64,000 bases of DNA, taken from the NCBI GenBank assembly GCA_016223135.1, contig JACRPQ010000004.1:1-64000 (forward strand), in the 5' to 3' direction. The DNA is from Chloroflexota bacterium. Its GTDB lineage: Bacteria; Chloroflexota; Anaerolineae; Anaerolineales; Villigracilaceae. Below are positions 38,179-54,017 of this stretch, in pieces. The position numbers and the translations under genes are program-made. Numbering within the stretch: the stretch's first letter is position 1; every line of letters starts with the position of its first letter. The notes beneath the pieces are model-generated. The model saw nothing but the letters and a program-made list of their open reading frames with translations, made no database searches and was not told where the DNA came from.

Positions 38179-38198
38179 GGCGGGGGAGAGGGTAGGAT

Positions 38199-38282
38199 GT
38201 ACACAAGTAAACAAGTACACAAGTAAACAGGTTTTCTGCCTGTCTGGATACCTGTGTACCTGTGTACCTGTAATCTGTCTAC
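38199..38282. repeat. Octamer array, inverted halves
   Basis: GTACACAA, GTAAACAA, GTACACAA, GTAAACAG, then after a short centre CCTGTCTG, CCTGTGTA, CCTGTGTA, CCTGTAAT. The right half supplies the TAG stop of the minus-strand HAD gene (38281-38279). Confidence 0.85.
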
Positions 38283-39040
38283 TCCCCAAACACATCCACC
38301 AACTGCTTCACGTGGACAACGCCGTCAAAATTCGGGATGCTGCCTTTGCGCAGGGTTGCCTTTTCGCCATCGGGGTCGCCCAAACAGGTGACGATGATGT
38401 CGCCGGCGCTCACGTCTTCCTTCTCTGTGTAACCGTTGGTAGTGACGATGACCTTCATACCCGCCGCCTTCGCCGCCTTGACGCCGTTCTTGGAATCCTC
38501 CACCACAAACGCTTCATCGGGCTTCAAGCCAAGTTTTTCCAGCGCGAGATTGTAGATTTCGGGATCGGGCTTCTTGTTCTTTACCACATCGCCCGCCAGC
38601 ACCACGTCGAACTTGACATCCGAGAGAATCTTTTCGGTGATGGCTTTCGCCGCCTGCTCGTTGGACGTGGTGCAGACGGCAATTTTCAACCCCGCCTCCA
38701 TCGCCTCTTTCATGAACCGATGGATGCCCGGCCGCAAGGGAAGTTTGCCCGTCTCGATCAACTCCACGAAGAGCGCCGTCTTGCGCTTGTGCATTTGCGG
38801 GATGAGCGCGTCAATCTCTTCCTCCGTCATCGGCTTGGAGAATCCCTTTGTCTTCCAGTGATGCTTCATGCGTTCCTTACCGCCGGCAATTTGAAGCAGT
38901 TCGTGGTAGTAGTCCACGCTCCACTCGTCGGTGAAGCCGAATTCTTTGAAGGTCATGTTGAATGAGACGCGGTGCCCGTCGCGTTCAGTGTCAATGATGA
39001 CGCCGTCCTGGTCGAAGAACACTGCTTGTATCTTGGACAT
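38279..39040 (-). CDS. HAD-superfamily phosphatase, beta-phosphoglucomutase/CbbY-like
   Basis: 253 residues. FFDQDGVIIDTE is motif I (DxDGVxxDTE; here F-D-Q-D), VCTTSNEQ motif II, KNKKPDPEIY motif III with lysine, and FVVEDSKNGVKAAKAAGM motif IV. A helical cap lies at ~20-95. ATG 39040 has AAGGAG upstream. It is the last gene of the left arm of the island and probably removes phosphate from a sugar- or amine-phosphate intermediate. Its stop is supplied by the octamer array. Confidence 0.85.
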   Translation of the reverse strand: MSKIQAVFFDQDGVIIDTERDGHRVSFNMTFKEFGFTDEWSVDYYHELLQIAGGKERMKHHWKTKGFSKPMTEEEIDALIPQMHKRKTALFVELIETGKLPLRPGIHRFMKEAMEAGLKIAVCTTSNEQAAKAITEKILSDVKFDVVLAGDVVKNKKPDPEIYNLALEKLGLKPDEAFVVEDSKNGVKAAKAAGMKVIVTTNGYTEKEDVSAGDIIVTCLGDPDGEKATLRKGSIPNFDGVVHVKQLVDVFGE

Positions 39041-39059
39041 GGTTGTCTCCTTGTGGGAG

Positions 39060-39133
39060 GTAGACAAGTAAACAAGTACACACGTATACAAGTACACACG
39101 TGTTTACCTGCTTACTTGTGTACCTGACTACTT
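39060..39133. repeat. Octamer array, inverted halves
   Basis: GTAGACAA, GTAAACAA, GTACACAC, GTATACAA, GTACACAC, then GTGTTTACCTGCTTACTTGT and GTACCTGACTACTT. It fills the gap and supplies the TAG stop of the aminotransferase (39130-39128). Confidence 0.85.
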
Positions 39134-40243
39134 CTTCACTCCAAAAAACTCAAGGATGGTGTTCACAAACAACTCGTTCTCTTCCTTCGTGCCGATGGTG
39201 ACGCGGAACCAGCCGTCGGAGCCGTATTTCTTGCTCTCGCCGCGCAGGATAATGCCCTTCGTCTCGGCGTAGGCAAGCACTTCCTTGCCCGTTTTGCCGG
39301 TGGGACCGCAATCGAAGAGAATGTAATTGGCTTTGGACGGGAAGATGACCAGCCCAGGGATGACACTCAGCGACTCGGTGATGTAATCCACCGCATCGTT
39401 ATTGAATTTGACGCGCTCCGCCAACCCTTCCTGATCCTCAAATGCCGCCAGCGCCGCCCACATGGGGATTGTCCCCACGTTCCAGGGCAGGAGCGAGCCG
39501 GAGATTTGCGCAATCACATCCTTATCGGCAATGGCATAGCCAAAGCGCATCCCCGCCAGACCGTAAGCCTTCGACAACGTGCGGGTGATGATGACGTTCT
39601 TGTACTTCTTCGTCAACTGCACCTGCGACATGCCCAAACCGGCATATTCGACATACGCTTCGTCAATCACAAAGGGAATACCCGTCTCCGCAATGCGGAT
39701 GAAGCCGTTGGCATCCATGAAGTTGCCGGTCGGGTTGTTCGGGTTGGCAATCACAATGATTTTGGTTTTGTCGGTGATGGCGTTCAGGATTCCGTCCGGG
39801 TCGAAGTGCAGGTAGTTGTCCTTGTAAATCATCGGCACGTTGACCATCTTCGCTCCGAGCAATGTGCCGCGCAATTGGTAAATGCCAAAGCACGGCGTGT
39901 GCTGGATGACCTCGTCCTGCTGGGGAACGATGAACATGCGGAAGATGTTGTCATACACTTCGCTGGAGCCGTTGCCGATCATTACGTTTTCGGGACCGTC
40001 CACGTTGTTGAGTTCGGCAATCTTGGAGCGAACGACCAATCCCTGATCAGGATAGCGGTTTGCCATCTTTGCATACCGATACATCGCGTCCAGCACTTTG
40101 TCGGAGGGGGGCAGCGGGTTTTCATTCGACATCATGCGGTGCAGCGACGGATTGCGCCATGCCTTTTCGATATGTTCCGAAATGTACATGGGGATGCCCT
40201 TTACCCACGGGGCATAATATTCTTCAATGCTTTTCTTTGCCAT
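39128..40243 (-). CDS. Class I/II aminotransferase, HisC-like
   Basis: 371 residues, PLP fold type I. NENPLPPSDKVLDAM, IGNGSSEVYD, IANPNNPTGN, VIDEAYVEY and the lysine motif TRTLSKAYGLAGMRFGY are all present, as in histidinol-phosphate and threonine-phosphate aminotransferases. There are no other his genes nearby, so I think it acts on a phosphorylated or polyhydroxylated amine in this island rather than in histidine synthesis. It may still be the genome's HisC. Confidence 0.82.
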   Translation of the reverse strand: MAKKSIEEYYAPWVKGIPMYISEHIEKAWRNPSLHRMMSNENPLPPSDKVLDAMYRYAKMANRYPDQGLVVRSKIAELNNVDGPENVMIGNGSSEVYDNIFRMFIVPQQDEVIQHTPCFGIYQLRGTLLGAKMVNVPMIYKDNYLHFDPDGILNAITDKTKIIVIANPNNPTGNFMDANGFIRIAETGIPFVIDEAYVEYAGLGMSQVQLTKKYKNVIITRTLSKAYGLAGMRFGYAIADKDVIAQISGSLLPWNVGTIPMWAALAAFEDQEGLAERVKFNNDAVDYITESLSVIPGLVIFPSKANYILFDCGPTGKTGKEVLAYAETKGIILRGESKKYGSDGWFRVTIGTKEENELFVNTILEFFGVKK

Positions 40244-40278
40244 TTCTATATCTCCTGAAAATTTTGTTTAGTGAGGAA

Positions 40279-40357
40279 GTATACAGGTATACACGTAGAC
40301 ACGTGAGGTGTGTACCTGTGTACTTGTTTACCTGTGTACTTGTTTACTTGTTTACGC
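40279..40357. repeat. Octamer array, inverted halves
   Basis: GTATACAG, GTATACAC, GTAGACAC, then a right half built of GTGTACTT and GTTTACTT-type units. It supplies the TAA stop of the aldolase (40354-40352). Confidence 0.85.
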
Positions 40358-41227
40358 TTTACCCACCGACTCCACCATTTCCATCCAGTGCATCACGGCT
40401 TTCTTTGTGGCTTCGCGCACGACCTTGTCAATCTTACCGGGGTCATACTCGTCACGATGAGCGGTGATGTACTCGTACTTCGTATCAATCAACGTATGCT
40501 TCAACTCGGTGGAGACGTTGAACTTTGCGCCGCCTGCCGCCAGCAGTTTCTTGATGTAATCTTCGGGCAAGCCCGTCCCGCCATGGACGACAAGTGGGGT
40601 CTTGATACCGCCGCCGTTCAACATTTTGTTGATGGTGGCAAGGCGGTCAAAGTCAATCTTCGGATTCTTGGTTTTATAAACGCCGTGCGCGGTGCCGATG
40701 GCGGGGGCGAAGATGTCCACACCTGTGCGCTCGACGAACTCCACCGACTGTTGGGGATTCGCCAACTGCGCCTCGTCCTCCGCGACCTTGATCTGGTCCT
40801 CCACCCCGCCGACGGTTCCCAACTCCCCTTCGACGGAGATGTCCCCGACGTTGTGGCAGTAATCCACCACCTCTTTCGTCTGGCGGATGTTCTCCTCGAA
40901 GGGCTGCTTGGAGGCGTCAATCATGATGTTGGTGTAGCCTGCGTCGGCGCATTTCTTGCAGTAGTCAATATCGGTGCAGTGATCGAGATGCAGCACAACG
41001 GGGACAGGCGCTTTCTGGGCGAGTGTGCGGTAGATGGCGACCAGCACATCGGCTCCGTAAAACTGTGACGGCTTGACCGAGGTTTGCACAATGACAGGCG
41101 ATTTCGTCTCGACAGCCGCATCAATGACAGCCTCGAATTGAATCAGATCCGTGACGTTGAACGCGCCGACGGCATAGCCTTTCTTCGCGGCTTCAATCAT
41201 GATTTCTTTTGCATTTGCGATGGACAT
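40352..41227 (-). CDS. Class II ketose-bisphosphate aldolase
   Basis: 291 residues. VLHLDHCTD, the EGELG acidic stretch, IGTAHGVYK and VVHGGTGLP are the zinc and phosphate landmarks of the FbaA/GatY/IolJ family. It splits a ketose (bis)phosphate into DHAP and an aldehyde; which one is not visible. Next to a HAD phosphatase, two kinase families and a DeoR-type regulator, a catabolic role for a sugar-like phosphate is more likely than glycolysis. Confidence 0.88.
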   Translation of the reverse strand: MSIANAKEIMIEAAKKGYAVGAFNVTDLIQFEAVIDAAVETKSPVIVQTSVKPSQFYGADVLVAIYRTLAQKAPVPVVLHLDHCTDIDYCKKCADAGYTNIMIDASKQPFEENIRQTKEVVDYCHNVGDISVEGELGTVGGVEDQIKVAEDEAQLANPQQSVEFVERTGVDIFAPAIGTAHGVYKTKNPKIDFDRLATINKMLNGGGIKTPLVVHGGTGLPEDYIKKLLAAGGAKFNVSTELKHTLIDTKYEYITAHRDEYDPGKIDKVVREATKKAVMHWMEMVESVGKA

Positions 41228-41283
41228 GGTTTACTCCTTTTTGCTTGGGTGATTTACAAAACTTGATTCTTTCCTATCGAGGG

Positions 41284-41342
41284 ATGAAGAATGAATTATG
41301 AATTATGAATGATGAATGATGAATTTTTTTCATCCTTCATCC
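41284..41342. repeat. ATGAATT heptamer array, inverted halves
   Basis: ATGAAGA, ATGAATT twice, ATGAATG twice, ATGAATT, then a T run and TTCATCCTTCATCC. It lies between two minus-strand genes and supplies the TGA stop of the kinase gene (41339-41337). Confidence 0.8.
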
Positions 41343-42308
41343 TTTTTTTACCTTCCTCTTCTTTTTCACGCCTCCTCCCGCCACATCCTTCAACCACTGC
41401 TCCCAGCGGAAGTCCGTCACGTGCTGGCGGAAGCGCGCAAACCACAAATCGGCATAGCCCTGGAAGTCCTCCTCCAGTTTCGAGATGCCCGTTTGCGTCG
41501 TTCCCCACATCGCCTCGTGCAGTTCAGACATGGGCCACATCAGCCTCAGGCGGGCATAATGCTTGGGGGTCACCTCGCCAAAGTACTCGTTCAGGAAGAA
41601 GCGCACCTGTTCGTCGTTCAGACGGTGATGATGGCAGAAGTTCGCCAGGTCGAAGAAGATGTCGCCCATGCCGGCATATTCCCAATCGAGCAGGCGCAGT
41701 TCGCCAATCTCGCCCGGCACATCCTCCTCCAGCCAGTTCAAATTCAACAAGTCGTCGTGACAGGGGGTGGGAATGTAGGGGTCCTTCTCCAGCGCCCTCC
41801 TCGCTTCGTTCATTTTTTGCATAATCCAGTCCCAATCGGGAGGGAATTTGCAATTATGGCGTTTGGAGACTTCGGTCAGCATTTCGACCCGGTGGAAGAC
41901 ATTGAACTCGTTTTTCAGTTCGGGACCGCGGCGGTGAAAGAGACGGATTTTCTTGACCACCCGCGCGAGGTAATCGGGCTGTTTGATGACGTCGGGAGGC
42001 ACGGTTTTGCCGTTGATGAAGCGCGTCACGATATAGCCTTCGGGTTCGATGAAGTACATGATTTCGGGGGCAATGCCCAGTTCGCCGGCGGCTTTGTTGG
42101 CGGCGTGTTCCACATCGCGCTTGATGCCGAGCAGTTCCGTGTTATCCCCGGCGAGACGAATGACATAGGCTCTACCGTCCGCTTCGATCTTGAAGTTCAG
42201 GTTGGTGATGCCGCCGCTGAGCGGAATCTTTTTGATGTTCTTCGATTCTGCCAGGAAGGGCACTTTGGCTATCGCTTTGTCAATTGCAAGGGTGGTCATC
42301 ATCTCCAT
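41337..42308 (-). CDS. LicA/choline-kinase-like phosphotransferase A
   Basis: 323 residues of the protein-kinase-like aminoglycoside/choline kinase fold. IPLSGGITNLNFKI is the nucleotide loop, PTPCHDDLLNLNWL the catalytic HxDxxxxN motif and RLLDWEYAGMGD the metal-binding DxE motif, all intact. The last residues are Lys/Arg rich and the stop lies in the repeat array. Expected to phosphorylate the hydroxyl of choline, ethanolamine, a hydroxyl amine or a sugar. It is 63 bases from the FAD oxidoreductase start side and matches kinase B at 50546-51445 on the other arm. The 63-base gap holds two small hairpins (42330-42344, 42345-42365). Confidence 0.85.
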   Translation of the reverse strand: MEMMTTLAIDKAIAKVPFLAESKNIKKIPLSGGITNLNFKIEADGRAYVIRLAGDNTELLGIKRDVEHAANKAAGELGIAPEIMYFIEPEGYIVTRFINGKTVPPDVIKQPDYLARVVKKIRLFHRRGPELKNEFNVFHRVEMLTEVSKRHNCKFPPDWDWIMQKMNEARRALEKDPYIPTPCHDDLLNLNWLEEDVPGEIGELRLLDWEYAGMGDIFFDLANFCHHHRLNDEQVRFFLNEYFGEVTPKHYARLRLMWPMSELHEAMWGTTQTGISKLEEDFQGYADLWFARFRQHVTDFRWEQWLKDVAGGGVKKKRKVKKG

Positions 42309-42371
42309 TTACTCCTCAATGAAATTTTGGAGGCGCTTTGCCTCAATTCGGATTTGAATCCGATTCTGCCC

Positions 42372-44804
42372 TTATGCCTTGATTCTCTCGCCTTTCGGGT
42401 CCCACAACACCGGCGGGGCGACTTCCGCTTCCACCTGTTCACCGAAACATTCGATTTCGAGTTTCGTTCCGATAGCGGCATATTCCACCGGCAAATATGC
42501 GTAAGCGATGGACTTTTTGACCGAATAGCCGTAGCCTCCCGAAGCCACCCATCCCACGAGCTGACCGCCGGCGCGGATAGGCTCCTTGCCCAGCACGATG
42601 GTGCGGTCATCGGCAAGCGTGATGCAGCACAATTTTCGCTTGATGCCTTCCGTCTTTTGTTTGAGCAGCGCTTCCCTGCCGATAAAGTTGCCCTTTTCCA
42701 GTTTGACGGCAAAGCCCAAACCAGCCTCATAGGGAGTGTAATCGGGACCAATTTCAGCGCTCCAATAGCGATAACCCTTTTCGAGCCTTAAAGTGTCAAT
42801 GGCTTTGTATCCCGCCGCCACCAACCCTTCGGGAACGCCCGCCTCCCAGAGCGTATCCCACAGCCGCAGACCATATTCCATCGGGCAGTAAAACTCCCAG
42901 CCGAGCTCGCCCACATAGGTCACGCGCGAAGCGAGGACGGGGACATCGCCGACGGTGATGCGTTTGGCGGTCATGTAGGGGAAGCCCGCGTTCGACACGT
43001 CGTCCGTCGTCACCTTCTCCAAAATTTTGCGCGCCTTCGGTCCCCACATGCCGATACACGCGTACTGCGAACCGACATCCTCAATGCTGACGCTTCCATC
43101 CTCCGGCATGTTCAGCGAGAGCCACGACGCATCATGCTGACCGAAGGCGGTTCCCGTGATGATGAGGAATTTCTCCTCCCCCAGCCGCGTGACGGTGAAA
43201 TCGCATTCGATGCCGCCGCGCTTGTTGAGCGCTTGAGTATAAACCACTGTGCCGATGGGAACGTCAATTTGATTGGCGCAGACGTAATTGAGGAACTTGA
43301 GCGCGCCGGGTCCGCGCACTTCGAACTTGTTGAAAGAGGTCTCGTCGAAGAGACCCGCATTCTCGCGCGTCATCAGGTGTTCGTGACCGATGGCGCGGCT
43401 CCAGTTGTGACGCGCCCAGCCGCGCGGTTCGTGTCCGTGCGTGGCTTTTTCCTCATAGATGCCAAACCAGTTGGGACGCTCCCAGCCGAACTTTTCGCCG
43501 AACGAACAGCGCAGGTCGCGCAGGCGGAAGTAGGTGGGAGAGAGCCGCTGTCCGCGCCGCGATATGCGCTCCTCACCGGGGAAGTGGATATCGTAATACT
43601 GTGTGTACGTTTCGAGCGTGCGCGCTGCGGCGTAGTCGAGACTGTCGTAGTTGGGACCGAAGCGGCGCACATCCAGCCGCCACACGTCCCATTCGGGCGA
43701 GCCGTCAATAATCCATTCCGCCATCACCTTGCCGATTCCGCCGGCGCCCGCCAGCCCATGCGCGCAGAACGCGCACGCCACCCAAAAGCCCTTGACCGAA
43801 GTCGGTCCCAGCAAAAACTCGCCGTCGGGCGTGAAGCCTTCGGGACCGTTGAGCAGTTTGACAATCTCCGCTTTTTCGATGGCTGGCACGCGGCGGATGG
43901 AGTTTTCCATCAGCGGTGCGAAGCGTTCCCAATCGGGCGCGAGCAGTTGATACTTGAAATTGCGCGGGATTCCGTTCATGCCGAATGTGGCGGGCTGGCG
44001 TTCGTATCCGCCCGTGATGAGCCCGCCGACCTCCTCGCGCCAATACACGAGCAAATCGGGGTCGCGCAGGTTGGGGAATTTGTTTGTCACGCCCGCGATG
44101 GGCTTGGTCATAAGGTACAAATGCGCCATGGGGATGACGGGCAGATTCAACCCGACCATTTTTCCGACCTCGCGTCCCCACATCCCCGCCGCATTGACGA
44201 CCACCTCGGTTCGTATGGACCCCTGATCGGTCACCACCTCACTGACCTTTCCGTCCTTCAAGCGAATCGCTTCGACGTTCACCCCCGTGAAGATTTTCGC
44301 GCCGCGACTCTTTGCGCCGGCGGCAAGCGCATTGGTCAGCCCCGTCGGGTCAATGCTGCCATCGTTGGGAGTGTATGCCGCGCCGACCACGCCCTTGATA
44401 TCCATCAGCGGAAACAATTCCTGCGCTTCTTTGGGGGTAATCAACTCCATCGGCACGCCGAACGAACGCGCCATGCCCACGAGTCGTTTCGTCTCTTCCA
44501 GACGCTCGTGCGAGGAAGCCAGCCGCACGCCGCCCACCTCGCGCCAGGAGGTGTCCACGCCTGTCTCTGCTTTGAGCCGGCGATAGAGGTCGGTGCTGTA
44601 ATGCATCATGCGCGTCAGGTTTGCGTCCGAACGCATCTGCCCGACGAGTCCCGCCGAGTGCCAGGTGGAGCCGGCGGTCAACTCGTGCCGCTCCACAATC
44701 ACCACATCCTTCCACCCCATCAGCGTGAGGTGATAAGCAATGCTTGCCCCGCCCACCCCGCCGCCAATGATGACAACCTGCGCATGTGTTGGTAGTTCTG
44801 CCAT
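42372..44804 (-). CDS. FAD oxidoreductase-GcvT fusion A (dimethylglycine/sarcosine dehydrogenase-like)
   Basis: 810 residues. Residues 10-390 are a DAO-type FAD domain (VVIIGGGVGGASIAYHL; STWHSAGL with His49, the residue that carries covalent FAD in mammalian DMGDH and SARDH). Residues ~390-470 are the FAO_M linker (SPTYFRLRDLRCSFGEKFGW). Residues ~475-810 are GcvT-type folate-binding domains ending in the barrel (TPYEAGLGF, FIGREALL). Such enzymes oxidise an N-methyl group and pass the carbon to tetrahydrofolate. Paralogue B is at 51525. The flavin and folate parts both look complete. Substrate could be dimethylglycine, sarcosine or another N-methyl compound. Confidence 0.9.
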   Translation of the reverse strand: MAELPTHAQVVIIGGGVGGASIAYHLTLMGWKDVVIVERHELTAGSTWHSAGLVGQMRSDANLTRMMHYSTDLYRRLKAETGVDTSWREVGGVRLASSHERLEETKRLVGMARSFGVPMELITPKEAQELFPLMDIKGVVGAAYTPNDGSIDPTGLTNALAAGAKSRGAKIFTGVNVEAIRLKDGKVSEVVTDQGSIRTEVVVNAAGMWGREVGKMVGLNLPVIPMAHLYLMTKPIAGVTNKFPNLRDPDLLVYWREEVGGLITGGYERQPATFGMNGIPRNFKYQLLAPDWERFAPLMENSIRRVPAIEKAEIVKLLNGPEGFTPDGEFLLGPTSVKGFWVACAFCAHGLAGAGGIGKVMAEWIIDGSPEWDVWRLDVRRFGPNYDSLDYAAARTLETYTQYYDIHFPGEERISRRGQRLSPTYFRLRDLRCSFGEKFGWERPNWFGIYEEKATHGHEPRGWARHNWSRAIGHEHLMTRENAGLFDETSFNKFEVRGPGALKFLNYVCANQIDVPIGTVVYTQALNKRGGIECDFTVTRLGEEKFLIITGTAFGQHDASWLSLNMPEDGSVSIEDVGSQYACIGMWGPKARKILEKVTTDDVSNAGFPYMTAKRITVGDVPVLASRVTYVGELGWEFYCPMEYGLRLWDTLWEAGVPEGLVAAGYKAIDTLRLEKGYRYWSAEIGPDYTPYEAGLGFAVKLEKGNFIGREALLKQKTEGIKRKLCCITLADDRTIVLGKEPIRAGGQLVGWVASGGYGYSVKKSIAYAYLPVEYAAIGTKLEIECFGEQVEAEVAPPVLWDPKGERIKA

Positions 44805-44815
44805 GATGTTAGTCT

Positions 44816-44857
44816 CCTGGTCTGAGAGTCGCTGGTCTAATAGTCGCCAGTTTTTTA
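44816..44857. repeat. Short tandem repeat of 15-16 bp
   Basis: CTGGTCTGAGAGTCG, CTGGTCTAATAGTCG and CCAG in tandem, just upstream (minus strand) of the FAD-GcvT start. A further word type among the intergenic arrays; ends in a T run. Confidence 0.55.
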
Positions 44858-44873
44858 GATGGTGGTTAAAAAA

Positions 44874-45683
44874 TTATTTTTGCCATACCGAATCGGGACG
44901 TGCCATTTCCGCTACAATATCGAACGTCGAAATGACCCCAAGTGGAAAAGCGTCTGGGTCATCTTTGTCAATCACGACCAAACGGTGATGATGATTCTGT
45001 ATCATCTTGTCTGCTGCTTCGCGGAGGCTGGCATGGATGTCAATCGTCAGGGCGGGGTGCATCACGTCGCGGACGACGAGACTCTCATCCGTTCCGTTTT
45101 GAACGAGGTGCAGAAGGTCCTTGCCGCTGACCACACCCAACACCTTTCCTTTAGCATCTACCACCAAGACGGAACGCCAGCCAGCGGAGGTCATGGCGCG
45201 TGCGGCAGAGAGAACGGACGTTTTGCCGCGACAAACGAGGATTGCTTCGGACATGACATCGCCGACACGTTCTCGTCTGGTTGAGATGCGTGCGCTCAGG
45301 CTGGCAACAAAATCAGAAAGGGAAATGACTCCTACCGGTTTGCCGTTCTCTGTCACCAACAGGCGGCTGACATCCTTTTCGATAAGAATACGCACTGCTT
45401 CAGCGAGGGGCATGTTTGCTTCCACTAAATCAACCGGCTGGGACATTAAATCCGCCGCAGTCAATTTTCGCATCACTTCCAAACTTTCAGAGTCGGCGGA
45501 AAGCCATTCGCCTGCCATCAGATCGAAATCAGAAATGACCCCCAAAATGCGCCCCTCATGGTCGGCGACGAACAATGCGTGAACGTGATTTTGGTCAAGC
45601 AAAGTTGCCACTTCTCCCAGCGTGGCATCGGGCTTGCAGGTGAAAATGCCCGGGTGCATGAGGTCGCGTACAAGTTTGGTCAT
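44874..45683 (-). CDS. Protein of four CBS domains
   Basis: 269 residues, entirely two Bateman modules. MHPGIFTCKPDATLGEVATL opens CBS1, LMSQPVDLVEANMPLAEAVR CBS2, VMSEAILVCRGKTSVLSAA CBS3 and VMHPALTIDIHASLREAA CBS4; each ends with a LxGVISxxD-like strand. CBS pairs sense adenine nucleotides or SAM. No catalytic domain is attached. It lies between the FAD-GcvT gene and a nucleotidyltransferase-like gene on the same strand (9-base gap to the latter), so it may report energy or SAM status to the island. Confidence 0.88.
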   Translation of the reverse strand: MTKLVRDLMHPGIFTCKPDATLGEVATLLDQNHVHALFVADHEGRILGVISDFDLMAGEWLSADSESLEVMRKLTAADLMSQPVDLVEANMPLAEAVRILIEKDVSRLLVTENGKPVGVISLSDFVASLSARISTRRERVGDVMSEAILVCRGKTSVLSAARAMTSAGWRSVLVVDAKGKVLGVVSGKDLLHLVQNGTDESLVVRDVMHPALTIDIHASLREAADKMIQNHHHRLVVIDKDDPDAFPLGVISTFDIVAEMARPDSVWQK

Positions 45684-45692
45684 GGTATTCTC

Positions 45693-46602: not shown

Positions 46603-46634
46603 CATCCTTTTGATTTTGTCAGGAGATTGGCGGT

Positions 46635-46686
46635 ATTATAATGAAAAATTCAAAATCTTGCAAAGTTTATCGGTTTCGCCTATAAT
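46635..46686. promoter_or_regulatory. Back-to-back promoters sharing one -35 hexamer
   Basis: TTGCAA at 46658-46663 is its own reverse complement. To the right a 17-base spacer leads to TATAAT (46681-46686) for the DeoR gene; to the left a 17-base spacer leads to TATAAT on minus (46640-46635) for the nucleotidyltransferase-CBS-FAD/GcvT arm. Confidence 0.75.
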
Positions 46687-46712
46687 GGCGAGCAAAAGTT
46701 TTCATTTTTCAT
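46641..46712. promoter_or_regulatory. Inverted repeat flanking the promoters, candidate DeoR operators
   Basis: ATGAAAAATTCAAAA (46641-46655) and TTTTCATTTTTCAT (46699-46712) are inverted copies, one in the minus promoter spacer and one after the plus -10. TTTC-rich repeats are usual for DeoR-type regulators. Binding is inferred. Confidence 0.5.
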
Positions 46713-46784
46713 CAAACAAAATTTCTTGCCGCAAAGAGTTAAAGGACGCTCTTTGTAGTCTCAAAAAGGACTTCCATAGTTCTC

Positions 46785-47579
46785 ATGGGCAAACCCCTCA
46801 TCCCAGCGCAGAGACGAGAACGGATTCAGGAATATCTGGCGGTTCACCAAATCGCACGGATTGCGGACTTGTGCGCGTTGCTGGAAACCTCGGAGGCAAC
46901 GGTTCGGCGCGACTTGGAATGGCTGGAGAACGAGGGGATTTTGGAGCGAACACACGGGGGGGCAATTCTTAACCAGAGCCTCACTTTTGAACCAGAATAT
47001 CTGCAACGCGCCCAAAAGAACCCCGAAGAGAAACGGGCGATTGGCGCACTTGCTGCCTCGTTGATCGAGGACGGCGACATCGTCTTTATCAACAGCGGCA
47101 CGACGACTACACAGGTGTTACACAGCATCCGCGCCAACTCCACCATCACCGTTTTTACCAACAACCTGAACGCTTCTCTCGAAATTGGAGATGCTGGGTT
47201 TCAGCATCATGTTCTCGGCGGTGAATTTCAGCCGCGCTCCAAATCCACAGCGGGGCGATTCGCTCTCGAGAACCTGCGGCAGGTTTATGCAGATAAGTGC
47301 ATCATCGGTGTGGATGGGATCAGTCTGAAGCACGGCTGCACGGTTCCGACCAACGCCGAGGCGGAAGTGGTCCGCGCGATGATCGAACGTACCAAAGGCA
47401 AGGTCATCATCGCGGCAGATTCTAGTAAATGGGGCGTCGTGTCCAATTTCCAAGTGGCTTCGATTGACGAAGTGGATATATTCGTCACCGACGAGAAGTT
47501 CGATCCTTCCGCCATCGAAGATCTTGCGGAGCACGGCGTCGAAACGCTTCTTGTCTCGACCAATGTCGTCAAAGCCTAA
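46785..47579 (+). CDS. DeoR/GlpR-family transcriptional regulator
   Basis: 264 residues. The N-terminal helix-turn-helix (RRERIQEYLAVHQIARIADL, TSEATVRRDLEWLENEG) is the DeoR signature; LERTHGGAI leads to the sugar-phosphate-binding domain with FINSGTTTTQVL and VFTNNL. Members sense phosphorylated sugars or polyols. It diverges from the left arm and heads the right arm, so it is the natural regulator of both. ATG 46785; leader of about 90 bases containing AAAGAG/CTCTTT arms. Confidence 0.9.
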   Translation: MGKPLIPAQRRERIQEYLAVHQIARIADLCALLETSEATVRRDLEWLENEGILERTHGGAILNQSLTFEPEYLQRAQKNPEEKRAIGALAASLIEDGDIVFINSGTTTTQVLHSIRANSTITVFTNNLNASLEIGDAGFQHHVLGGEFQPRSKSTAGRFALENLRQVYADKCIIGVDGISLKHGCTVPTNAEAEVVRAMIERTKGKVIIAADSSKWGVVSNFQVASIDEVDIFVTDEKFDPSAIEDLAEHGVETLLVSTNVVKA

Positions 47580-47613
47580 CAACGCGCTGTGCGTTGTTGG
47601 GCTTTTTGTTTTG
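47571..47613 (+). terminator. Terminator of the DeoR gene
   Basis: AACAACGC pairs with GCGTTGTT around GCTGT, extended by AAAGCC with GGCTTT, followed by TTGTTTT. The stem begins inside the last codons. Confidence 0.85.
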
Positions 47614-47617
47614 GAGA

Positions 47618-47666
47618 GTACACACATACACAAGCCAATAAGTACCTACTTCACCTGTATACCTCT
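47618..47666. repeat. Octamer array, degenerate
   Basis: GTACACAC, ATACACAA, GCCAATAA, GTACCTAC, then TTCACCTGTATACCTC. Lies between the terminator and the ribosome site of the next gene. Confidence 0.65.
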
Positions 47667-47679
47667 CTAGGAGAGCTCG

Positions 47680-48675
47680 ATGAAATTTTTCTCCAAAAAA
47701 AACGCCAAAAAAACCACCCGCCTCTTCTTTGCCACCGACCTGCACGGCTCGGAGCGTACCTTCCGCAAATTCATCAACGCCGGGAAGTTCTATGAGGCGA
47801 ACGTCCTTGTGATGGGCGGCGATATTCAGGGCAAACTTCTCATTCCGATTATCAAGGAAGCAAACGGACATTACCGCGCCACGGTACAGGGACGCGTGGA
47901 ACGCATGGCGACACAGGAAGAATTGGCGGGACTCACTGCACGGCTCGATACGCTTGGTTTCTACTACAAAGTAATGGATGAAGACGAATTCCGCACACTT
48001 TCCGCCAACCCAAAGGCGGTGGACGCCTTATTCCACGAAGAAGCGCGCAAGAAACTAAGCCGCTGGGTGGATCTGGCGGAGGAACGTCTCAACGGTACGG
48101 GCATCAAATGTTTTGTCACGGGCGGCAACGATGACGAATGGGATGTGCTGTCGTCGCTAAAACGCGAGGGAACTCAATCGCTTGTTGCCTGCGAAAACGA
48201 GATGGTTTATGTGGATAATGACCATACGATGATTTCCATCGGTATCAGCACGCCGACCCCCTGGAAGACGCCGCGCGAAACAACCGAAGAGGAACTTGGA
48301 AAGATGATTGAAGAAATGGCGGCAAAGGTGCCCGACATGAACAAAGCCATCTTCAATTTTCACGACCCGCCCAAAGACTCGACGCTCGACACCTGCCCCA
48401 TGCTCGATTGGACGAAAGACCCGCCCGAGCAAATCGTTCAGGGCGGACAGCCCGTTATGCATGGTGCAGGTTCGAGGTCCGTGCGGGAGGCGATTGAGAA
48501 GTACAAACCCATGCTTGGTCTGCATGGACACATTCACGAATCCCAGTCCGTCGCGAGAATTGGGCGGACAGTATGTATCAATCCGGGCAGCGAATACGGA
48601 GAGGGAATCCTGCGCGGCTGTCTGGTAAATTTTGTGGACGGCGAGGTTGTGGGGTATCAAATGACGAGCGGATGA
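47680..48675 (+). CDS. Calcineurin-like metallophosphoesterase
   Basis: 331 residues. FFATDLHGSERTFRKF (DxH), VLVMGGDIQG (GD), FVTGGNDDEW (GNxD variant of GNHD: Asn-Asp-Asp), NFHDPP and GLHGHIHES (GHxH) give the metal ligands. A helical insertion at ~75-145 is longer than in small phosphoesterases. The GNDD change at the usual GNHE/D histidine may alter catalysis. Substrate unknown; it stands in the right arm before the permease. Confidence 0.82.
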   Translation: MKFFSKKNAKKTTRLFFATDLHGSERTFRKFINAGKFYEANVLVMGGDIQGKLLIPIIKEANGHYRATVQGRVERMATQEELAGLTARLDTLGFYYKVMDEDEFRTLSANPKAVDALFHEEARKKLSRWVDLAEERLNGTGIKCFVTGGNDDEWDVLSSLKREGTQSLVACENEMVYVDNDHTMISIGISTPTPWKTPRETTEEELGKMIEEMAAKVPDMNKAIFNFHDPPKDSTLDTCPMLDWTKDPPEQIVQGGQPVMHGAGSRSVREAIEKYKPMLGLHGHIHESQSVARIGRTVCINPGSEYGEGILRGCLVNFVDGEVVGYQMTSG

Positions 48676-48772
48676 TATATTCAAATCTATTTCAGGAGGC
48701 AGGCATGATGTGAGTTTTGTTTGACGCTTTTGTTGTCGGCTGAAATCATTTTCAAACCAAAGGAGAAATGTA

Positions 48773-50401
48773 ATGGCTACTGCTACAGCAAAACCAGAAG
48801 TCTTCACCCGAAAAGCCTCGGGATTGGTGCGTGTCATGTCTCCGTTCTCAGCCTTCGTCTACAACATTTTGACGATGGGATTGATTTTCCCCTGGACGTA
48901 CCTGTGGGCGCCGGGCGCATTACCAGGCGGCAAACTTGTTTGGGGTATTCTGCTGGCGATGGTGATCGAAATTCCAATTGCGTTGGTGTACGTCTGGCTC
49001 TCCACGGCGCTGCCTCGTTCCGGCGGTGACTATGTGTTCCAGAGCCGCGTGTTCGGCGGCGGGGTAGCGTTCACCGTTGTGATGTCTGGTTATGTGATCT
49101 GGATTTTGCAATGGGTAGCGCTTTCAGGGTGGCTGCTCTCATATCTTGGATTTGCCCCCCTCTTTCTCGGTTTAGGCGCCACACTGGGGAATACCGCGCT
49201 GTCAAACTTGGGAGTCTGGTTTACCGGTGCGACAGGGATAATCATTACCAGCATTTTGAATGCCTTCGTCGCGGCGCTCATCCTTATCAGCGGATTCAAA
49301 AACTACGTGCGCTTCCAAAACGTGATGATTGTCGGCACGCTTCTGGCGTTCTTTACCATGCTGGTAGTTTTGTTTACGGGCAATCCCGCCTCATCTGCCG
49401 CCCATTTGGATGCATTTGCCAAGGCGATTGCCGGCGTAGATAATTTCGTACAAACCGCGCGGGATGCTTCGGTTGCCGCGGGCATTGACCTCAATCCGCC
49501 CTTCAGCCTGATTGCCACCCTGCTGGTTGCGCCCATCGCCTGGACATCCCTTCAGTGGGCGACTTACTCCGCACAGCAGAACGGTGAGATCAAGAACGCC
49601 CGTTCCTTCAATAGCCAGATGTTTATCATCGTCGGCTCGTTGATTTTCACAGGCATTCTGCTTGCGCTCCTTGCCGCAGCACTGGAAAAAGCCGTCGGTA
49701 CGGAATTTCTATACATTGCTGGGGCGGGTTATTGGGCAGGCGTGAGTGAAGCGACGATTGCCGGCTTTTGGCTGTGGCCCAACATCATCGCGGTCGCCCT
49801 CACAGCCAGTCCGTTGGTGGTTGTCCTCATTGGGATCGGCTATATCCTCAACTCGCATCAGATCGTGCACAACTGTTATATCGGCATGACGCGTGTGATG
49901 GTTGCCATGTCGCTTGACCGCCTGCTGCCTGAATGGGTCAGCCGCGTGGACGAGAAACGCCATACCCCTGCCAACGCGCACTGGGCATATTTCATCGCCA
50001 GCATCCCTGTCATCTTTCTCTACAATCTCTATCCGGGCTGGGTCGGTCTGACCCTGGGCGTGACCTTCGCCTGCGGTTATGTGTTCGTCGTCACCTGCCT
50101 GGCGGGCGCACTGCTGCCCTACCGCGCCAAGGATGTGTACGAAGCCTCGCCCGGAGCGAAGTACAAGCTCGGCGGCGTTCCGCTTGTGACCATTTTGGGC
50201 ATCATTGGCTTCATCCTCGGCGCGATTATGCTGTTGATGTTCATGTTCGACCCGCGCCTCGGTTTGACCAGCCCGCTGGCATATGGCATCGTTTTTGGGG
50301 TGCTAGCGGTTTCGGCAGTATGGTACTTTATCGCCAAGAACATGCAGAAATCACGCGGCATCAATGTGGAATACGCCTTCAAGGAAATTCCGCCCGAATA
50401 G
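48773..50401 (+). CDS. APC-superfamily permease
   Basis: 542 residues, twelve or more membrane segments. MSPFSAFVYNILTMGLIFPW at the start, LPRSGGDYVFQSRVFGG after segment 2, and RMxVAMSLDRLLPEW with SRVDEKRHTPANAHW late in the protein are APC landmarks. It is not close in sequence to the permease at 36503, but fills the matching place on the right arm. AAAGGAG precedes the ATG. Probably an amino acid or amine importer. Confidence 0.88.
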   Translation: MATATAKPEVFTRKASGLVRVMSPFSAFVYNILTMGLIFPWTYLWAPGALPGGKLVWGILLAMVIEIPIALVYVWLSTALPRSGGDYVFQSRVFGGGVAFTVVMSGYVIWILQWVALSGWLLSYLGFAPLFLGLGATLGNTALSNLGVWFTGATGIIITSILNAFVAALILISGFKNYVRFQNVMIVGTLLAFFTMLVVLFTGNPASSAAHLDAFAKAIAGVDNFVQTARDASVAAGIDLNPPFSLIATLLVAPIAWTSLQWATYSAQQNGEIKNARSFNSQMFIIVGSLIFTGILLALLAAALEKAVGTEFLYIAGAGYWAGVSEATIAGFWLWPNIIAVALTASPLVVVLIGIGYILNSHQIVHNCYIGMTRVMVAMSLDRLLPEWVSRVDEKRHTPANAHWAYFIASIPVIFLYNLYPGWVGLTLGVTFACGYVFVVTCLAGALLPYRAKDVYEASPGAKYKLGGVPLVTILGIIGFILGAIMLLMFMFDPRLGLTSPLAYGIVFGVLAVSAVWYFIAKNMQKSRGINVEYAFKEIPPE

Positions 50402-50510
50402 TCTGGCAGTTGATAAATGGTCATGAGTGCGGGCAGCGCTTCCTCGGCGCTGTCCGCCATTTGAGTTATAGTGCGCGTTGAGAACGTACATTACGTGTCG
50501 TTGGCGTAGC

Positions 50511-50528
50511 GAATGTTCTCTAACGTCC
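50511..50528 (+). repeat. Dispersed 17-mer, copy 3 (diverged)
   Basis: GAATGTTCTCTAACGTCC, three changes from copies 1 and 2, ends 17 bases before the kinase B start. An inverted partner GAGAACGTACATT lies at 50480-50492. Confidence 0.55.
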
Positions 50529-50545
50529 ATATTTCGGAGTGTGAT

Positions 50546-51445
50546 ATGCCAATCATTGACGAGATCATTGCAAAGATTCCAAACTGGCAGGGAAGGAAGG
50601 TTTCCATTCAACCGCTTTCAGGGGGATTGACCAATACCAATTACAAAGTGGTGGTGGATGAAACCCCGTATTTTGTGCGCGTCCCCGGTGAAAGCACAGA
50701 ACTGCTCGCCATTGACCGCGCCAACGAATATCACAACACTAAAGCCGCCAGCGAAGCGGGCGTCGCGCCGAAGGTTTTGTATCATCTGCCCGAATACAAT
50801 GTGATGGTGCTGGAGTTTATCCATGGCAGAACCATGTCGAAGGATGCGCTAAACGAGCCAGGCATGCCGGCGCGCATGGCACAGGCAATCAAACAACTCC
50901 ACGGCGGTCCGCGCTTCCTGCTTGACTTCAACATGTTTCGCCTCACGGAGTATTATCTCAGCCTGTGCCGTGACCGCGGTATCAAAATCCCCGACGGATA
51001 CAACGAACGGCTGGAGACGGTCAGGCTCATCGAGCGGGCGATGAATGTCAAGCCATTGCCGACTGTTCCCTGCAATAACGACCTGCTGGCGGAAAATTAC
51101 ATTGACGATGGCAGGCAATTATGGTTGATTGATTACGAATATAGCGGCAACAACGATCCGACGTTTGAATTGGGGAACACCTGTCAGGAAATGCAATTCA
51201 ATGAGGAGCAGATTTGCGAGGTCTGCGCCGCATATTTCGGCGAGGCGACCCCGTCTATGATCGCGCGCATGAAGTTGAACATGATCATGTCTGATGTGGG
51301 TTGGGGATTATGGGCGGCGATTCAGGCGAAGATTTCCTCGATTGAGTTCGATTTTTGGGGTTGGGCAATCGAGCGCTGGGATAGGGCGGTACAGAAAATG
51401 GATTCGGCGGAGTTCAAGGGGTGGCTGGAGGAAGTACAAAGGTAG
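50546..51445 (+). CDS. LicA/choline-kinase-like phosphotransferase B
   Basis: 299 residues; paralogue of kinase A. IQPLSGGLTNTNYKVV is the nucleotide loop and WLIDYEYSGNNDP the DxE metal motif. The catalytic motif is VPCNNDLLAENYI: the aspartate and asparagine remain but the first histidine of HxD is asparagine. ATG 50546 has GGAG upstream; the frame runs to 50513 without need. The TAG stop lies in the first unit of an octamer array. It sits between an APC permease and the FAD-GcvT gene, as kinase A does on the other arm. Confidence 0.85.
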   Translation: MPIIDEIIAKIPNWQGRKVSIQPLSGGLTNTNYKVVVDETPYFVRVPGESTELLAIDRANEYHNTKAASEAGVAPKVLYHLPEYNVMVLEFIHGRTMSKDALNEPGMPARMAQAIKQLHGGPRFLLDFNMFRLTEYYLSLCRDRGIKIPDGYNERLETVRLIERAMNVKPLPTVPCNNDLLAENYIDDGRQLWLIDYEYSGNNDPTFELGNTCQEMQFNEEQICEVCAAYFGEATPSMIARMKLNMIMSDVGWGLWAAIQAKISSIEFDFWGWAIERWDRAVQKMDSAEFKGWLEEVQR

Positions 51446-51512
51446 ACAGGATACAAGTACACATGTACACAGGTCGTTTGTTTACTTGTGTACTTGTGTA
51501 CTTGTATACCTC
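51442..51512. repeat. Octamer array, inverted halves
   Basis: GTAGACAG, GATACAA, GTACACAT, GTACACAG, then GTTTACTT, GTGTACTT twice and GTATACCT. It supplies the TAG stop of kinase B (51443-51445) and ends at the AAGGAG of the next gene. Confidence 0.85.
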
Positions 51513-51524
51513 CGAAGGAGAACC

Positions 51525-53948
51525 ATGAAAACACAGGCAGAAATTGTCGTCATCGGCGGAGGGATTTACGGAGCGCAGGTTGCCTATCATCTGGCAAAGT
51601 ATGGGCGCAAGGATGTGGTCATCCTGGAAAAAGGGGAGATTGCCAGCGGCGAGTCGTCGCACGCGGCGGGGTTGGTGACGCAATTTGCCACCTCGCAGGC
51701 GATGCTCAAGTTCCGCATGTACAGTGTGGAGTTATACAGTCAGTTGGGATTGTTCAATCACGTTGGCAGTTTGCGGGTGGCTTCGAGCCGCGAGCAGCTC
51801 CTTGAGTTGGAACGCAGTGTCAGCCGGGCAAAGGCGCTGGGATTGGAGTGCGAGGTCATCGGTCCGGATGAAGCGTTGAAGATCATGCCTCAGATTTCGA
51901 GGGAGAATCTCTACGGGGCAATCTATCTGCCGCGTGACGGGCAGCTCGATCCGTATATCACCACGACTTCAATGGTGAAGTTCGCAAAGGAACTGGGCGT
52001 GGAGGTGTACACCAACACGCGTGTGACGGGGATCAAACTGTCAGCGAGGGGAGAGGTCGAGGCGGTGGTAACAGACAAAGGCGAGATTCGATGCGAGATC
52101 GTCGTCAACGCCGCGGGGATGTGGGCGCCGCGCATCGCTGCGATGGCAGGTCTGCACATTCCAACGACGCCAGTGGATCATCAGCACATTGCCCTGCGCG
52201 CCGTGCCCGGACATGAATTTGCCCCCGATACGCCCTGTCTGCGCGACCCCGACAATCTGGTGTACATGCGGCAGGAACATGGGGGGCTGGTCATTGGCGG
52301 TTATGAGCCGAACCCCATCGCCCGCTGGATTGACGGCGCGCCGTGGGAGCATGGCGGCAGGAGCCTGCCCGGCGATTTCGAGCAGTTCGAGATGCTGCTG
52401 GAGGGCGCCATTCGCCGCATTCCGTTTTTGGATCAGGCTGGCATCATCACGCTGGTGCGCCACCCCGGCGCATACACGCCCGACTGTCAACCCCTGCTCG
52501 GACCGATGCCTGGTGCGCGCGGCTTTTGGATGATGGCAGGCATGTCGCTGAATGGTTACGGCGGCGCGGGCGGCATGGGGAAACTCATGGCAGAGTGGAT
52601 CATCGAAGGCGAAGCGCCAATGGATGTGTACGCCTATCGTGCCACGCGCTTCGGCAATTATTATTCCAATTTCACCTACGCGGCAGAACGGACGCGCGAG
52701 TGTGTGAAGTATTACTACCGTTTGAAGTTTCCGCACGACGAGCATGAATGGGCGAGACCGCACCGCGTCAGCCCACTGCATTACCGCCTCATGGAAAACG
52801 GCGCGGTCTTCGGCGAGAAGTTCGGCTGGGAGCGCGTCAACTACTTTGACCCCGGCAAGCCGTCGCGCCGCATGGGCGAAGATCAGCGCAACTGGGGCGG
52901 CTGGGTCAAGCCGCCGTTCTTCGAACGTCTGCGGCAGGAACACACCGCCACACGCGAACGGGTCTGTTTGTATGATTTGACTTCCTTCGGAAAAATCGAG
53001 GTGAAGGGCAAAGGCGCATTGTCATTGCTGCAGCGCCTGACCGACAGCAACATAGACCGTCCGGTCGGCAGCGCCATCTACACCCAGTTCCTCAACACGC
53101 GCGGCGGCATCGAATCGGACCTGACCGTCACGCGGCTGGGCGAAGATTACTTTTGGGTCATCACGGGTTCGGCGTTCATCGCCAACGACCTGGCGCGGAT
53201 TCAAATGCACGCCGACGGCGACGTTTCGATTCGGGACATCACGCAGGAATATGCCTGTCTCGCGTTATGGGGACCGAGAGCCAGAGATGTGCTGCAAAAG
53301 GTGACAAATTCTGATGTGTCCAATCAGGCGCATCCCTACCTGACGACGAAGCCCATCGAAATCAACGGCGCGCGCGTGCTGGCGCAGCGCGTCAGTTATG
53401 CGGGCGAACTTGGCTGGGAGTTGTATATTCCCAACAACCGCGCGACGATGGTCTGGGACCTGCTCATCGAGGCAGGCAAAGAGTTCGGCATGGAACTCGG
53501 CGGTTACAAAGTACTCGACCCGCTGAGGCTGGAGAAAGGCTACAAATACTTCACAGCCGACATCACCCCCTCCGAAACGCCCTACGAAGCCGGGCTGGGG
53601 TTCTGCGTGGATTTGGAGAAGGGCGATTTCATCGGGCGCGAGGCGCTGCTCAAACAAAAAGCGGAGGGCGTGAAGCGCAAACTCTGTACCCTCGTTCTGA
53701 CCGATACGGACGAGTTCACTCAAATCTACGGCGGCGAAGCGGTGTATCATCAAGGCAAAGTCCTCACCCGCGTCCGCAGCGGCGGATATGGCTTCACGGT
53801 GAAGAAGAACATCCTGTACGCCTATCTGCCCGTTGAACTTGCCAAAGCGGGCAGCCGCTTCGTCATTGACCTGATTGAGGGTCGCCGCGAAGCGGAAGTG
53901 ACCGCCCCGGTGCTATATGACCCAAAGGGCGAGCGCTTACGCGGGTAA
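51525..53948 (+). CDS. FAD oxidoreductase-GcvT fusion B (dimethylglycine/sarcosine dehydrogenase-like)
   Basis: 807 residues from the ATG at 51525 (GAAGGAG upstream); the open frame back to 51294 overlaps kinase B and is not used. Same three-part layout as protein A: FAD domain (IVVIGGGIYGAQVAYHL; ESSHAAGL with His46 as likely covalent FAD site), linker (SPLHYRLMENGAVFGEKFGW) and GcvT domains (TPYEAGLGF, FIGREALL). The two paralogues differ through most of their length, so they may take two successive substrates, as DMGDH and SARDH do. The stop is supplied by a heptamer array. Confidence 0.9.
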   Translation: MKTQAEIVVIGGGIYGAQVAYHLAKYGRKDVVILEKGEIASGESSHAAGLVTQFATSQAMLKFRMYSVELYSQLGLFNHVGSLRVASSREQLLELERSVSRAKALGLECEVIGPDEALKIMPQISRENLYGAIYLPRDGQLDPYITTTSMVKFAKELGVEVYTNTRVTGIKLSARGEVEAVVTDKGEIRCEIVVNAAGMWAPRIAAMAGLHIPTTPVDHQHIALRAVPGHEFAPDTPCLRDPDNLVYMRQEHGGLVIGGYEPNPIARWIDGAPWEHGGRSLPGDFEQFEMLLEGAIRRIPFLDQAGIITLVRHPGAYTPDCQPLLGPMPGARGFWMMAGMSLNGYGGAGGMGKLMAEWIIEGEAPMDVYAYRATRFGNYYSNFTYAAERTRECVKYYYRLKFPHDEHEWARPHRVSPLHYRLMENGAVFGEKFGWERVNYFDPGKPSRRMGEDQRNWGGWVKPPFFERLRQEHTATRERVCLYDLTSFGKIEVKGKGALSLLQRLTDSNIDRPVGSAIYTQFLNTRGGIESDLTVTRLGEDYFWVITGSAFIANDLARIQMHADGDVSIRDITQEYACLALWGPRARDVLQKVTNSDVSNQAHPYLTTKPIEINGARVLAQRVSYAGELGWELYIPNNRATMVWDLLIEAGKEFGMELGGYKVLDPLRLEKGYKYFTADITPSETPYEAGLGFCVDLEKGDFIGREALLKQKAEGVKRKLCTLVLTDTDEFTQIYGGEAVYHQGKVLTRVRSGGYGFTVKKNILYAYLPVELAKAGSRFVIDLIEGRREAEVTAPVLYDPKGERLRG

Positions 53949-53981
53949 TTGGTAACTGGTAATTACCAATTACCCCTTACC
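53944..53981. repeat. GGTAATT heptamer array, inverted halves
   Basis: GGTAATT, GGTAACT, GGTAATT, ACCAATT, ACCCCTT, ACC. Supplies the TAA stop of the FAD-GcvT gene (53946-53948). A different short repeat, GACTATCAGGCTATCAGAC, follows at 53997-54015. Confidence 0.8.
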
Positions 53982-54017
53982 ACTCACCTACTATCCGACT
54001 ATCAGGCTATCAGACTC

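Follow-up and report, generated by a model that had tools for sequence, protein, structure and literature searches.

The window analyzed here, a stretch of 64,000 nucleotides from a Chloroflexota bacterium of the Villigracilaceae, carries inverted arrays of short tandem words at the ends of genes for HAD, HisC-like, aldolase, kinase, FAD-GcvT and SDR proteins. The original prediction placed seven stop codons at or inside these arrays, and this holds: the HAD, HisC, aldolase and kinase A genes end at 38279, 39128, 40352 and 41337, those of kinase B, FAD-GcvT B and the SDR at 51445, 53948 and 24088, and each stop lies in an array or touches it.

20627-20676, minus strand: octamer array inside the open reading frame 19395-21023
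24059-24090, minus strand: heptamer inverted array (TGGTAAW, c4-type) at the SDR stop (24090-24088)
38199-38281, minus strand: octamer inverted array (GTAnACAn, c6-type), the first unit of which holds the HAD stop TAG (38281-38279)
39060-39133, minus strand: octamer inverted array between HisC (stop 39130-39128) and HAD
40279-40355, minus strand: octamer inverted array between aldolase (stop 40354-40352) and HisC
41283-41344, minus strand: heptamer inverted array (GGATGAA/ATGAATx, c3-type) between kinase A (stop 41339-41337) and aldolase
51443-51509, plus strand: octamer inverted array between kinase B (stop ending at 51445) and FAD-GcvT
53944-53982, plus strand: heptamer inverted array (GGTAATT, c4-type) at the FAD-GcvT B stop (ending at 53948)
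53990-54016, plus strand: octamer word ACTATCAG, the complement of CTGATAGT, a word flanking a four-helix-bundle (4HB) gene of the c2 group (L161)

The window arrays were recovered by TRF, and they are predicted to fold as RNA hairpins, with z-scores of -5.60, -5.27, -3.04, -3.12, -5.43, -4.18 and -3.99 for the HAD, HisC, aldolase, kinase A, kinase B, FAD-GcvT B and SDR arrays, respectively; no shuffled sequence out of 200 folded as well for six of them, and one out of 200 did for the SDR array. The hairpins may affect mRNA ends, as originally proposed. The octamer array at 20627-20676 and the word at 53990-54016 are absent from the list given earlier for this DNA.

The further claim that each array replaces the original 3' end of its gene mostly fails. 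The orthologue comparison covered six genes, that is, all but the SDR, and the last residue is unchanged in array-less orthologues of HAD, HisC, aldolase, kinase B and FAD-GcvT B; an altered C-terminus was found for kinase A, the end of which differs. Because orthologues without the array share the end residue in five of six testable genes, stop donation is not general, and it is ruled out as an array function for those five. True stop donation was observed in one case, on an Aulosira plasmid, where the upstream protein is 12 residues shorter. Arrays directly adjoin the native stop, and the register is often G-TAR-ACA.

A search for three units of GTAnACAn (at most one mismatch) yielded 405 matches in the 3.82-Mb genome G000, against none for the reversed-pattern control. 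In a 700-kb sample, the genes of which were called with a simple codon-score caller, 21 octamer arrays of at least three units were identified: 16 lie between co-directional genes (median 7 bp from stop to array and 26 bp from array to start), one between convergent genes, one between divergent genes and three inside predicted genes. The forward arm precedes its complement in 12 of these 21 arrays and follows it in none, the other nine being one-armed at the strictness used. Seventeen arrays have a gene 3' end no more than 60 bp away; in nine of them the stop coincides with unit bases 2-4, and strict GTARACA is found at seven of the 17, as against 9 of 552 for all gene ends of the sample.

Genes coding for 4HB proteins (PF05635/TIGR02436, annotated as 23S rRNA IVP) are flanked by inverted word arrays in all ten cases found in G000. 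The same arrangement was scored at 64 of 95 loci in the genus (mismatched flanks, 32/944) and at 44 of 71 in a cross-phylum sample (mismatched flanks, 8/695; other ORFs, 3/253), with 31/95 and 27/71 loci, respectively, scoring below 30; flanks too short to score had removed 3 of 98 and 9 of 80 loci. The genus contains at least 98 such loci, this being the subset fetched from the matches listed. After exclusion of loci with no callable neighbor (8/98 and 18/80), the 4HB gene was in sense orientation at 73/90 and 49/62 loci, compared with 49/100. All 4HB loci examined lie between protein genes and no transposase was found at them; three 4HB proteins compared with domain models matched TIGR02436 and, more weakly, PRK12275 only, with no nuclease or polymerase domain. 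The window's own arrays contain no gene. Short tandem heptamers of filamentous cyanobacteria are known as STRR, and the inverted arrays seen at nine of ten cyanobacterial plasmid 4HB loci, hand-chosen for flank inspection from 28 plasmid records with a 4HB match, are presumably of this kind, judged by repeat type.

The word follows the subfamily of the 4HB protein (none of 5000 permutations was as good), and the word families of the window correspond to 4HB subfamilies present in the genus, even if a repeated 6-mer is common to only 27% of same-clade pairs. An initial measure of word sharing (any shared 7-mer in 220-bp flanks), with means of 22.3 at protein identities of at least 60%, 15.5 at 45-60% and about 14 below, proved noisy and was replaced by a stricter one. 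Across 61 genomes, with rank and Fisher tests that take related genomes as independent, the octamer word is associated with the c6 gene (p 8e-7) and the c4 word with the c4 gene (p 1e-8), the c4 word showing no association with the c6 gene (p 0.10). A correlation exists between the octamer and the c4 gene as well (p 2e-5), and part of the signal is therefore shared array-richness. G000 has 405 octamer matches yet no c6 gene, and at least ten matches occur in 12 of 48 genomes lacking that gene. Of the 13 c6 genes, seven occupy one ornithine-carbamoyltransferase-like/carbamate-kinase-like junction and three the kinase B/FAD junction, with neighbors assigned from protein sequence, and those sharing a junction are therefore not independent insertions. 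A prediction for other phyla was borne out: the two genomes expected to carry GGGAATC contain 221 and 24 runs of it and eight others none, and in Luteimonas and Dokdonella 4HB genes are both flanked and accompanied by this word. For AGTAGYC, the expected genomes, again two, have 138 and 34 runs, and two unpredicted ones have 11 and 4.

In Nostocalean plasmids, one site is found in four states: vacant, occupied by a 4HB element, occupied by a decayed one or holding a gene-less hairpin. Clean empty and filled states were obtained at plasmid sites 1, 2, 5 and 6; sites 3 and 7 have no clean boundaries, and site 4, antisense to its neighbors, is not clean. A putative direct target duplication stands out at site 1 only, with GTAAT on both ends, while TTCTA at site 2 may represent microhomology with the element end and site 5 has no duplication. 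The kinase B/FAD-GcvT junction, occupied by a gene-less array in the window, carries array, 4HB gene and array in G014, G019 and G022. Empty and filled sites, dispersal together with a cognate gene and position just behind stops thus support the original proposal of a mobile or expanding element class at gene ends in operons. Copying of one arm from the other by fold-back was considered and rejected, free positions agreeing at 0.457 in 34 hairpins versus 0.463 when shuffled.

Given computed results on array linkage, word-subfamily match, word-gene co-occurrence, stop-proximal placement and the four states of one site, we consider it probable that the window arrays are gene-less, non-autonomous forms of a widespread micro-element, the 4HB protein of which recognizes the word. 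In its complete form, the element would consist of one PF05635/TIGR02436 gene, coding for a 4HB protein of some 115-165 aa, with an array of a 7-9 nt word on one side and the inverted array on the other. It would lie mostly in sense orientation inside operons, at the upstream stop or a few bases from it, and each 4HB subfamily would have its own word. The 4HB protein would recognize this word unit by unit and might spread or maintain arrays in trans, with host enzymes cutting and copying, possibly by acting on the hairpin as single-stranded DNA or transcript. Insertions would survive best directly behind stops; TAR in the first unit can itself be a stop, and array boundaries would therefore coincide with stops. 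To the broader claim that PF05635/TIGR02436 proteins are word-reading partners of bacteria-wide micro-elements, the arrays of which spread behind stops through host enzymes with or without the gene, we attach belief and doubt in equal measure.

A regulon would account for part of the same evidence. Here, the 4HB protein would be a post-transcriptional regulator or mRNA-protecting factor that binds the word in operon transcripts, its own included, and the arrays would be selected sites rather than mobile ones. The position of the arrays behind stops in operons, their predicted folding as RNA and their presence around the 4HB gene itself are in agreement with this reading, as is the constancy of six octamer unit positions, in part a product of leaving units with more than one mismatch uncounted. 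Likewise, G008 keeps arrays at the window arrays' junctions with changed units. A MAFFT alignment of G000 with G008 could not be relied on beyond the syntenic block and served solely to locate the 47.6-kb junction, which was then checked separately. Against a regulon stand the occurrence of a single plasmid site as empty, filled with a gene, decayed or gene-less, array numbers that range from 0 to 486 among close relatives in one genus and the occupation of the same junctions by different hairpin families in congeners, and we regard it as unlikely. Ordinary replication slippage in intergenic DNA, to which PMC4692102 attributes heptamer arrays, could explain an array of 20 nearly identical units, with 4HB genes between arrays by chance. 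However, slippage predicts neither inverted arms nor the word-subfamily match, the flanking of ten out of ten genes in G000 or the cross-phylum outcomes, and identity between neighboring units matches that of shuffled units at lags 1 and 3 and slightly exceeds it at lag 2; being insufficient alone, it appears highly improbable.

Two known mobile systems invite comparison with the putative micro-element. The 4HB protein could act as the Avd of a DGR-like retroelement, with a reverse transcriptase (RT) and arrays copied through RNA, as the sense orientation in transcripts and the resemblance of PF05635 to the related four-helix-bundle protein Avd (PMC10053308) might suggest. Nonetheless, no RVT_1 match occurs in G000 (98.4% complete) or in the c6-bearing G010, G016, G022 and G033, and none of eight Avd-like 4HB genes adjoining RTs has inverted arrays, which leaves this reading as improbable as slippage. 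Least probable of all is that a Y1 (RAYT) transposase moves the arrays as REP-like elements. As described in PMC3733652, REPs are dispersed intergenic palindromes, with a cognate RAYT gene between copies. Their GTAG tag resembles the GTAR register seen at stops. Yet no run of the octamer, the word checked, lies in the locus of any of the five Y1_Tnp matches in G000, and no Y1 (HUH) transposase accompanies the 4HB elements at the loci examined. The arms are tandem words of 7-9 nt rather than a palindrome of 20-40 bp with a GTAG-type tag, and the word varies with protein subfamily, GTAR occurring in some words only and GTAG being absent from those of other subfamilies.

The repeat pattern itself is already in print: the accessible text of PMC4692102 describes, in Xanthomonas and Nostoc, mostly intergenic 7-nt tandem arrays, often in inverted pairs, close to and overlapping stops and retained by relatives at the same junctions although their sequence has changed, and proposes a G-quadruplex role for the GGGAATC and GGGGA(C/T)T repeats. 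The window's heptamer arrays fit this description and its octamers share the layout with a period of 8, but the window words are not G-rich, and that text names no protein partner. A publication linking the pattern to the 4HB protein was not found in the open-access literature searched, as far as its accessible text goes. The nearest kind is the 23S rRNA IVS encoding IVP (PMC11270868), in which the same protein family is encoded in insertions within transcribed genes. A PF05635 gene inside an insertion is common to both, whereas the insertions reported here lie between protein genes and have tandem-word arms; the system could be counted as IVSs outside rRNA. Since tests for features that define REP/RAYT, DGR and rRNA IVS gave negative results, we set it apart as a new class.

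Arrays of dispersed heptamers and octamers on the one hand and, on the other, the widespread "four helix bundle / S23" proteins, both orphans, appear to be halves of one system. If so, bacteria would harbor a class of mobile elements without a recognized recombinase, based on a small protein fold paired with short words and perhaps a re-targetable reader of nucleic acids, which would bring the rRNA IVS proteins, the role of the 4HB family and the heptamer repeats seen in Xanthomonads and Nostocales under one explanation. By the same token, a 4HB gene located next to CRISPR or another operon may have come there as a hitchhiking insertion.

Re-reading of the sequence confirmed the positions originally assigned to the window arrays and their stops. 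The octamer is GTAnACAn, in which positions 4 and 8 are free and the remaining six are constant in 93-100% of 290 interior units, a constancy that owes something to the counting rule, which admitted only units with at most one mismatch. Three-unit octamer runs number 405 across the 3.82-Mb genome to which the window belongs (G000), and 0 for the reversed-pattern control. The 21 octamer arrays with at least three units in 700 kb of the window's contig fall mainly between co-directional genes (16), the others being in one convergent pair, one divergent pair and, in three cases, within predicted genes; both arms are present in 12 of them, in the order GTAnACAn followed by its complement in 12/12. 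The 16 tandem-gene arrays lie at a median of 7 bp from the stop and 26 bp from the next start. Unit bases 2-4 constitute the stop in 9 of the 17 arrays that lie no more than 60 bp from the 3' end of a gene, and strict GTARACA occurs in 7 of these 17, as against 9 of 552 gene ends overall. All seven window arrays fold more strongly than shuffles (z -3.0 to -5.6). A degenerate octamer hairpin is also present at 47617-47665 of the window, between 47579 and 47680, where the related genomes G008 and G019 hold full arrays.

The original view that these arrays replace the 3' ends of genes mostly failed on comparison of the window junctions with congeners G008, G001, G005, G007 and G003. G008 has arrays at all six junctions compared, with units differing from those of G000. 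In array-less orthologues, the end residue is unchanged for HAD and HisC (G001, G005), aldolase (G001, G005, G007, G003), kinase B and FAD-GcvT B (both G001, G003); kinase A differs, its tail being longer and different in G000 and G008. Because array-less orthologues end at the same residue, the array adjoins and shares the native stop, leaving the C-terminus in place. Congeners hold other hairpin families at several of these junctions (e.g. the CACAAAGG and GGTCGAG...CTCGACC types), which makes the gap behind a stop look like a landing place of a general kind. Congener hairpins of these two types and of the TTCTCTAACG type correspond to window positions 38100-38290, 40240-40360, 44845-44875 and 50401-50513.

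At the kinase A/aldolase junction of G007, octamer arrays flank a gene encoding a four-helix-bundle protein (4HB; PF05635/TIGR02436, '23S rRNA IVP'), and the 10 PF05635 genes found in G000 all sit between inverted arrays, the words of which vary with the protein. When each gene is scored by the strongest inverted match that its 400-bp upstream flank makes with its 400-bp downstream flank, with a threshold of 30, 10/10 4HB genes of G000 reach it, versus 2 of 156 other genes of at most 700 bp in a 700-kb sample, one of these two being a 4HB gene. The only other array-flanked gene among the 156, at 559095-559469 of the window's contig (G000:C3), is a 124-codon ORF that is not 4HB-like and lies between inverted AAATCGC-type arrays. 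Within the genus, 64 of 95 4HB loci reach 30, compared with 32 of 944 mismatched flanks. The sole significant PDB match of the protein associated with the octamer (subfamily c6) is 2GSC (XCC0516), and since this was the query for a cross-phylum search, the loci were picked by protein alone. Among the best 80 kept, 44 of the 71 scorable reach 30, versus 8/695 mismatched flanks and 3/253 other ORFs from the same loci; their record titles name Pseudomonadota, Bacteroidota, Acidobacteria, Planctomycetes, Clostridia, Chloroflexi, candidate phyla and others. Scores of at least 38 were obtained at 9 of 10 4HB loci read on cyanobacterial plasmids, and inverted flanks at 0/8 4HB genes adjoining reverse transcriptases (Avd-like). 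Among 4HB genes, 73/90 in the genus and 49/62 in the cross-phylum set run in the same direction as the genes on either side, against 49/100 other small genes. An acidic C-terminal tail with an (R/H)E(D/E)..x.Y-like motif was seen in 4HB proteins L105, L084, L081, L098 and L157.

Grouping of the 98 4HB proteins of the genus at 55% identity or more defines subfamilies with distinct flanking words.

Words in the flanks of genus 4HB genes, by protein subfamily
c4: TGGTAAW
c3: GGATGAA
c2: ATAGTYTG and TAGTCTGA
c6: GTAnACAn
further groups: GGCGTGAG, CAGTGATC and others

Certain groups, one of 119 aa among them, yield no clear word by the repeated-word measure. The window words match those of c6, c4 and c3, plus c2 through a single member (L161). 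Repeated-word overlap in non-syntenic pairs is 0.079 at 50% identity or above (n=227) versus 0.005 in others, with 0/5000 permutations reaching the observed value (maximum 0.055); the match is only partial, a repeated 6-mer being common to 27% of same-clade pairs and 2% of others. In proteins 46-48% identical to c6, the word is now GTAAATTAG or TTGGTAGA-like. In many genomes a 4HB gene directly precedes a carbamate-kinase-like gene (L184-L190, L192, L193), a junction that carries the octamer with c6 proteins and a different word with 47-48% relatives.

Word and gene also occur together across genomes. With c6 genes called at 56% identity or more in 61 relatives, at least 10 octamer matches are found in 13/13 genomes with the gene versus 12/48 without it (Fisher p 8e-7), and octamer units lie on both sides of 12 of the 13 c6 genes, the thirteenth having a GTARATAA-like variant. 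The c4 word goes with the c4 gene (p 1e-8) and shows no such association with the c6 gene (p 0.10). Since the octamer is likewise associated with the c4 gene (p 2e-5), part of the word-gene correlation reflects shared array-richness. G000 itself lacks a c6 gene despite its octamer matches. The cross-phylum prediction that a dispersed word accompanies a 4HB gene with that flank word held. GGGAATC, the published Xanthomonas repeat (PMC4692102), forms 221 runs in a Luteimonas and 24 in a Dokdonella genome, both with this word at 4HB flanks, and 0 in eight other genomes; AGTAGYC runs number 138 and 34 in the two genomes where they were expected, 11 and 4 in two others and 0 in six.

Natural empty sites are supplied by Nostocalean plasmids. 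Site 1 is empty in Nostoc linckia and N. carneum (AAAAAGTAATTAACAAATAA(A/T)TATG) and filled in Trichormus and Scytonema, where the TAA stop carries an approximately 0.4-kb 4HB element with GTAAT at both ends; in Nostoc C052 the site has a decayed copy, and in Brasilonema a hairpin without a gene. At site 2 the stop position is kept and the insert is flanked on both sides by TTCTA, which may represent microhomology. At site 5 (Aulosira) the upstream protein is 12 residues short and stops at the element's edge, a true stop donation, and at site 6 the element lies at the last codons and the upstream protein is one residue shorter; boundaries at sites 3, 4 and 7 are not clean. The kinase B/FAD junction has no octamers in G001 and G003, a gene-less array in G000 and G008, and an array, a 4HB gene and a second array in G014, G019 and G022. 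We favour the reading of the window arrays as gene-less forms of this micro-element.

Within a hairpin, neither arm is a copy of the other (free-position agreement 0.457 versus 0.463 shuffled, 34 hairpins), and therefore the likeness of the units is not maintained by pairing; its simplest cause would be a protein that recognises them unit by unit. As no RVT_1 match was found in G000 and octamer runs are absent from its five Y1 transposase loci, we infer that host enzymes would do the chemistry for the 4HB protein, which would itself read the word, and insertions would survive best directly behind stops. The main rival to such a mobile element is a regulatory RNA-binding role of the 4HB protein, and the two may coexist.

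The window arrays belong with the heptamer repeats described in PMC4692102, the authors of which report arrays near stops, inverted and site-conserved, with no established function. PF05635 is described in PMC11270868 as found in rRNA insertions and functionally uncharacterised, and in PMC10053308 as resembling DGR Avd; no link between heptamer-type arrays and PF05635 was found in one collection of open-access full-text literature. '23S rRNA IVP' is listed among CRISPR-associated families in a figure legend of PMC10910872, which might reflect 4HB insertions such as those between cas6 and cas4. On plasmids of Anabaena sp. 90 (L305) and Pseudanabaena galeata (L310), a 4HB gene with inverted arrays lies between these two genes, and in a related Dolichospermum plasmid the place is taken by a different palindromic insert.
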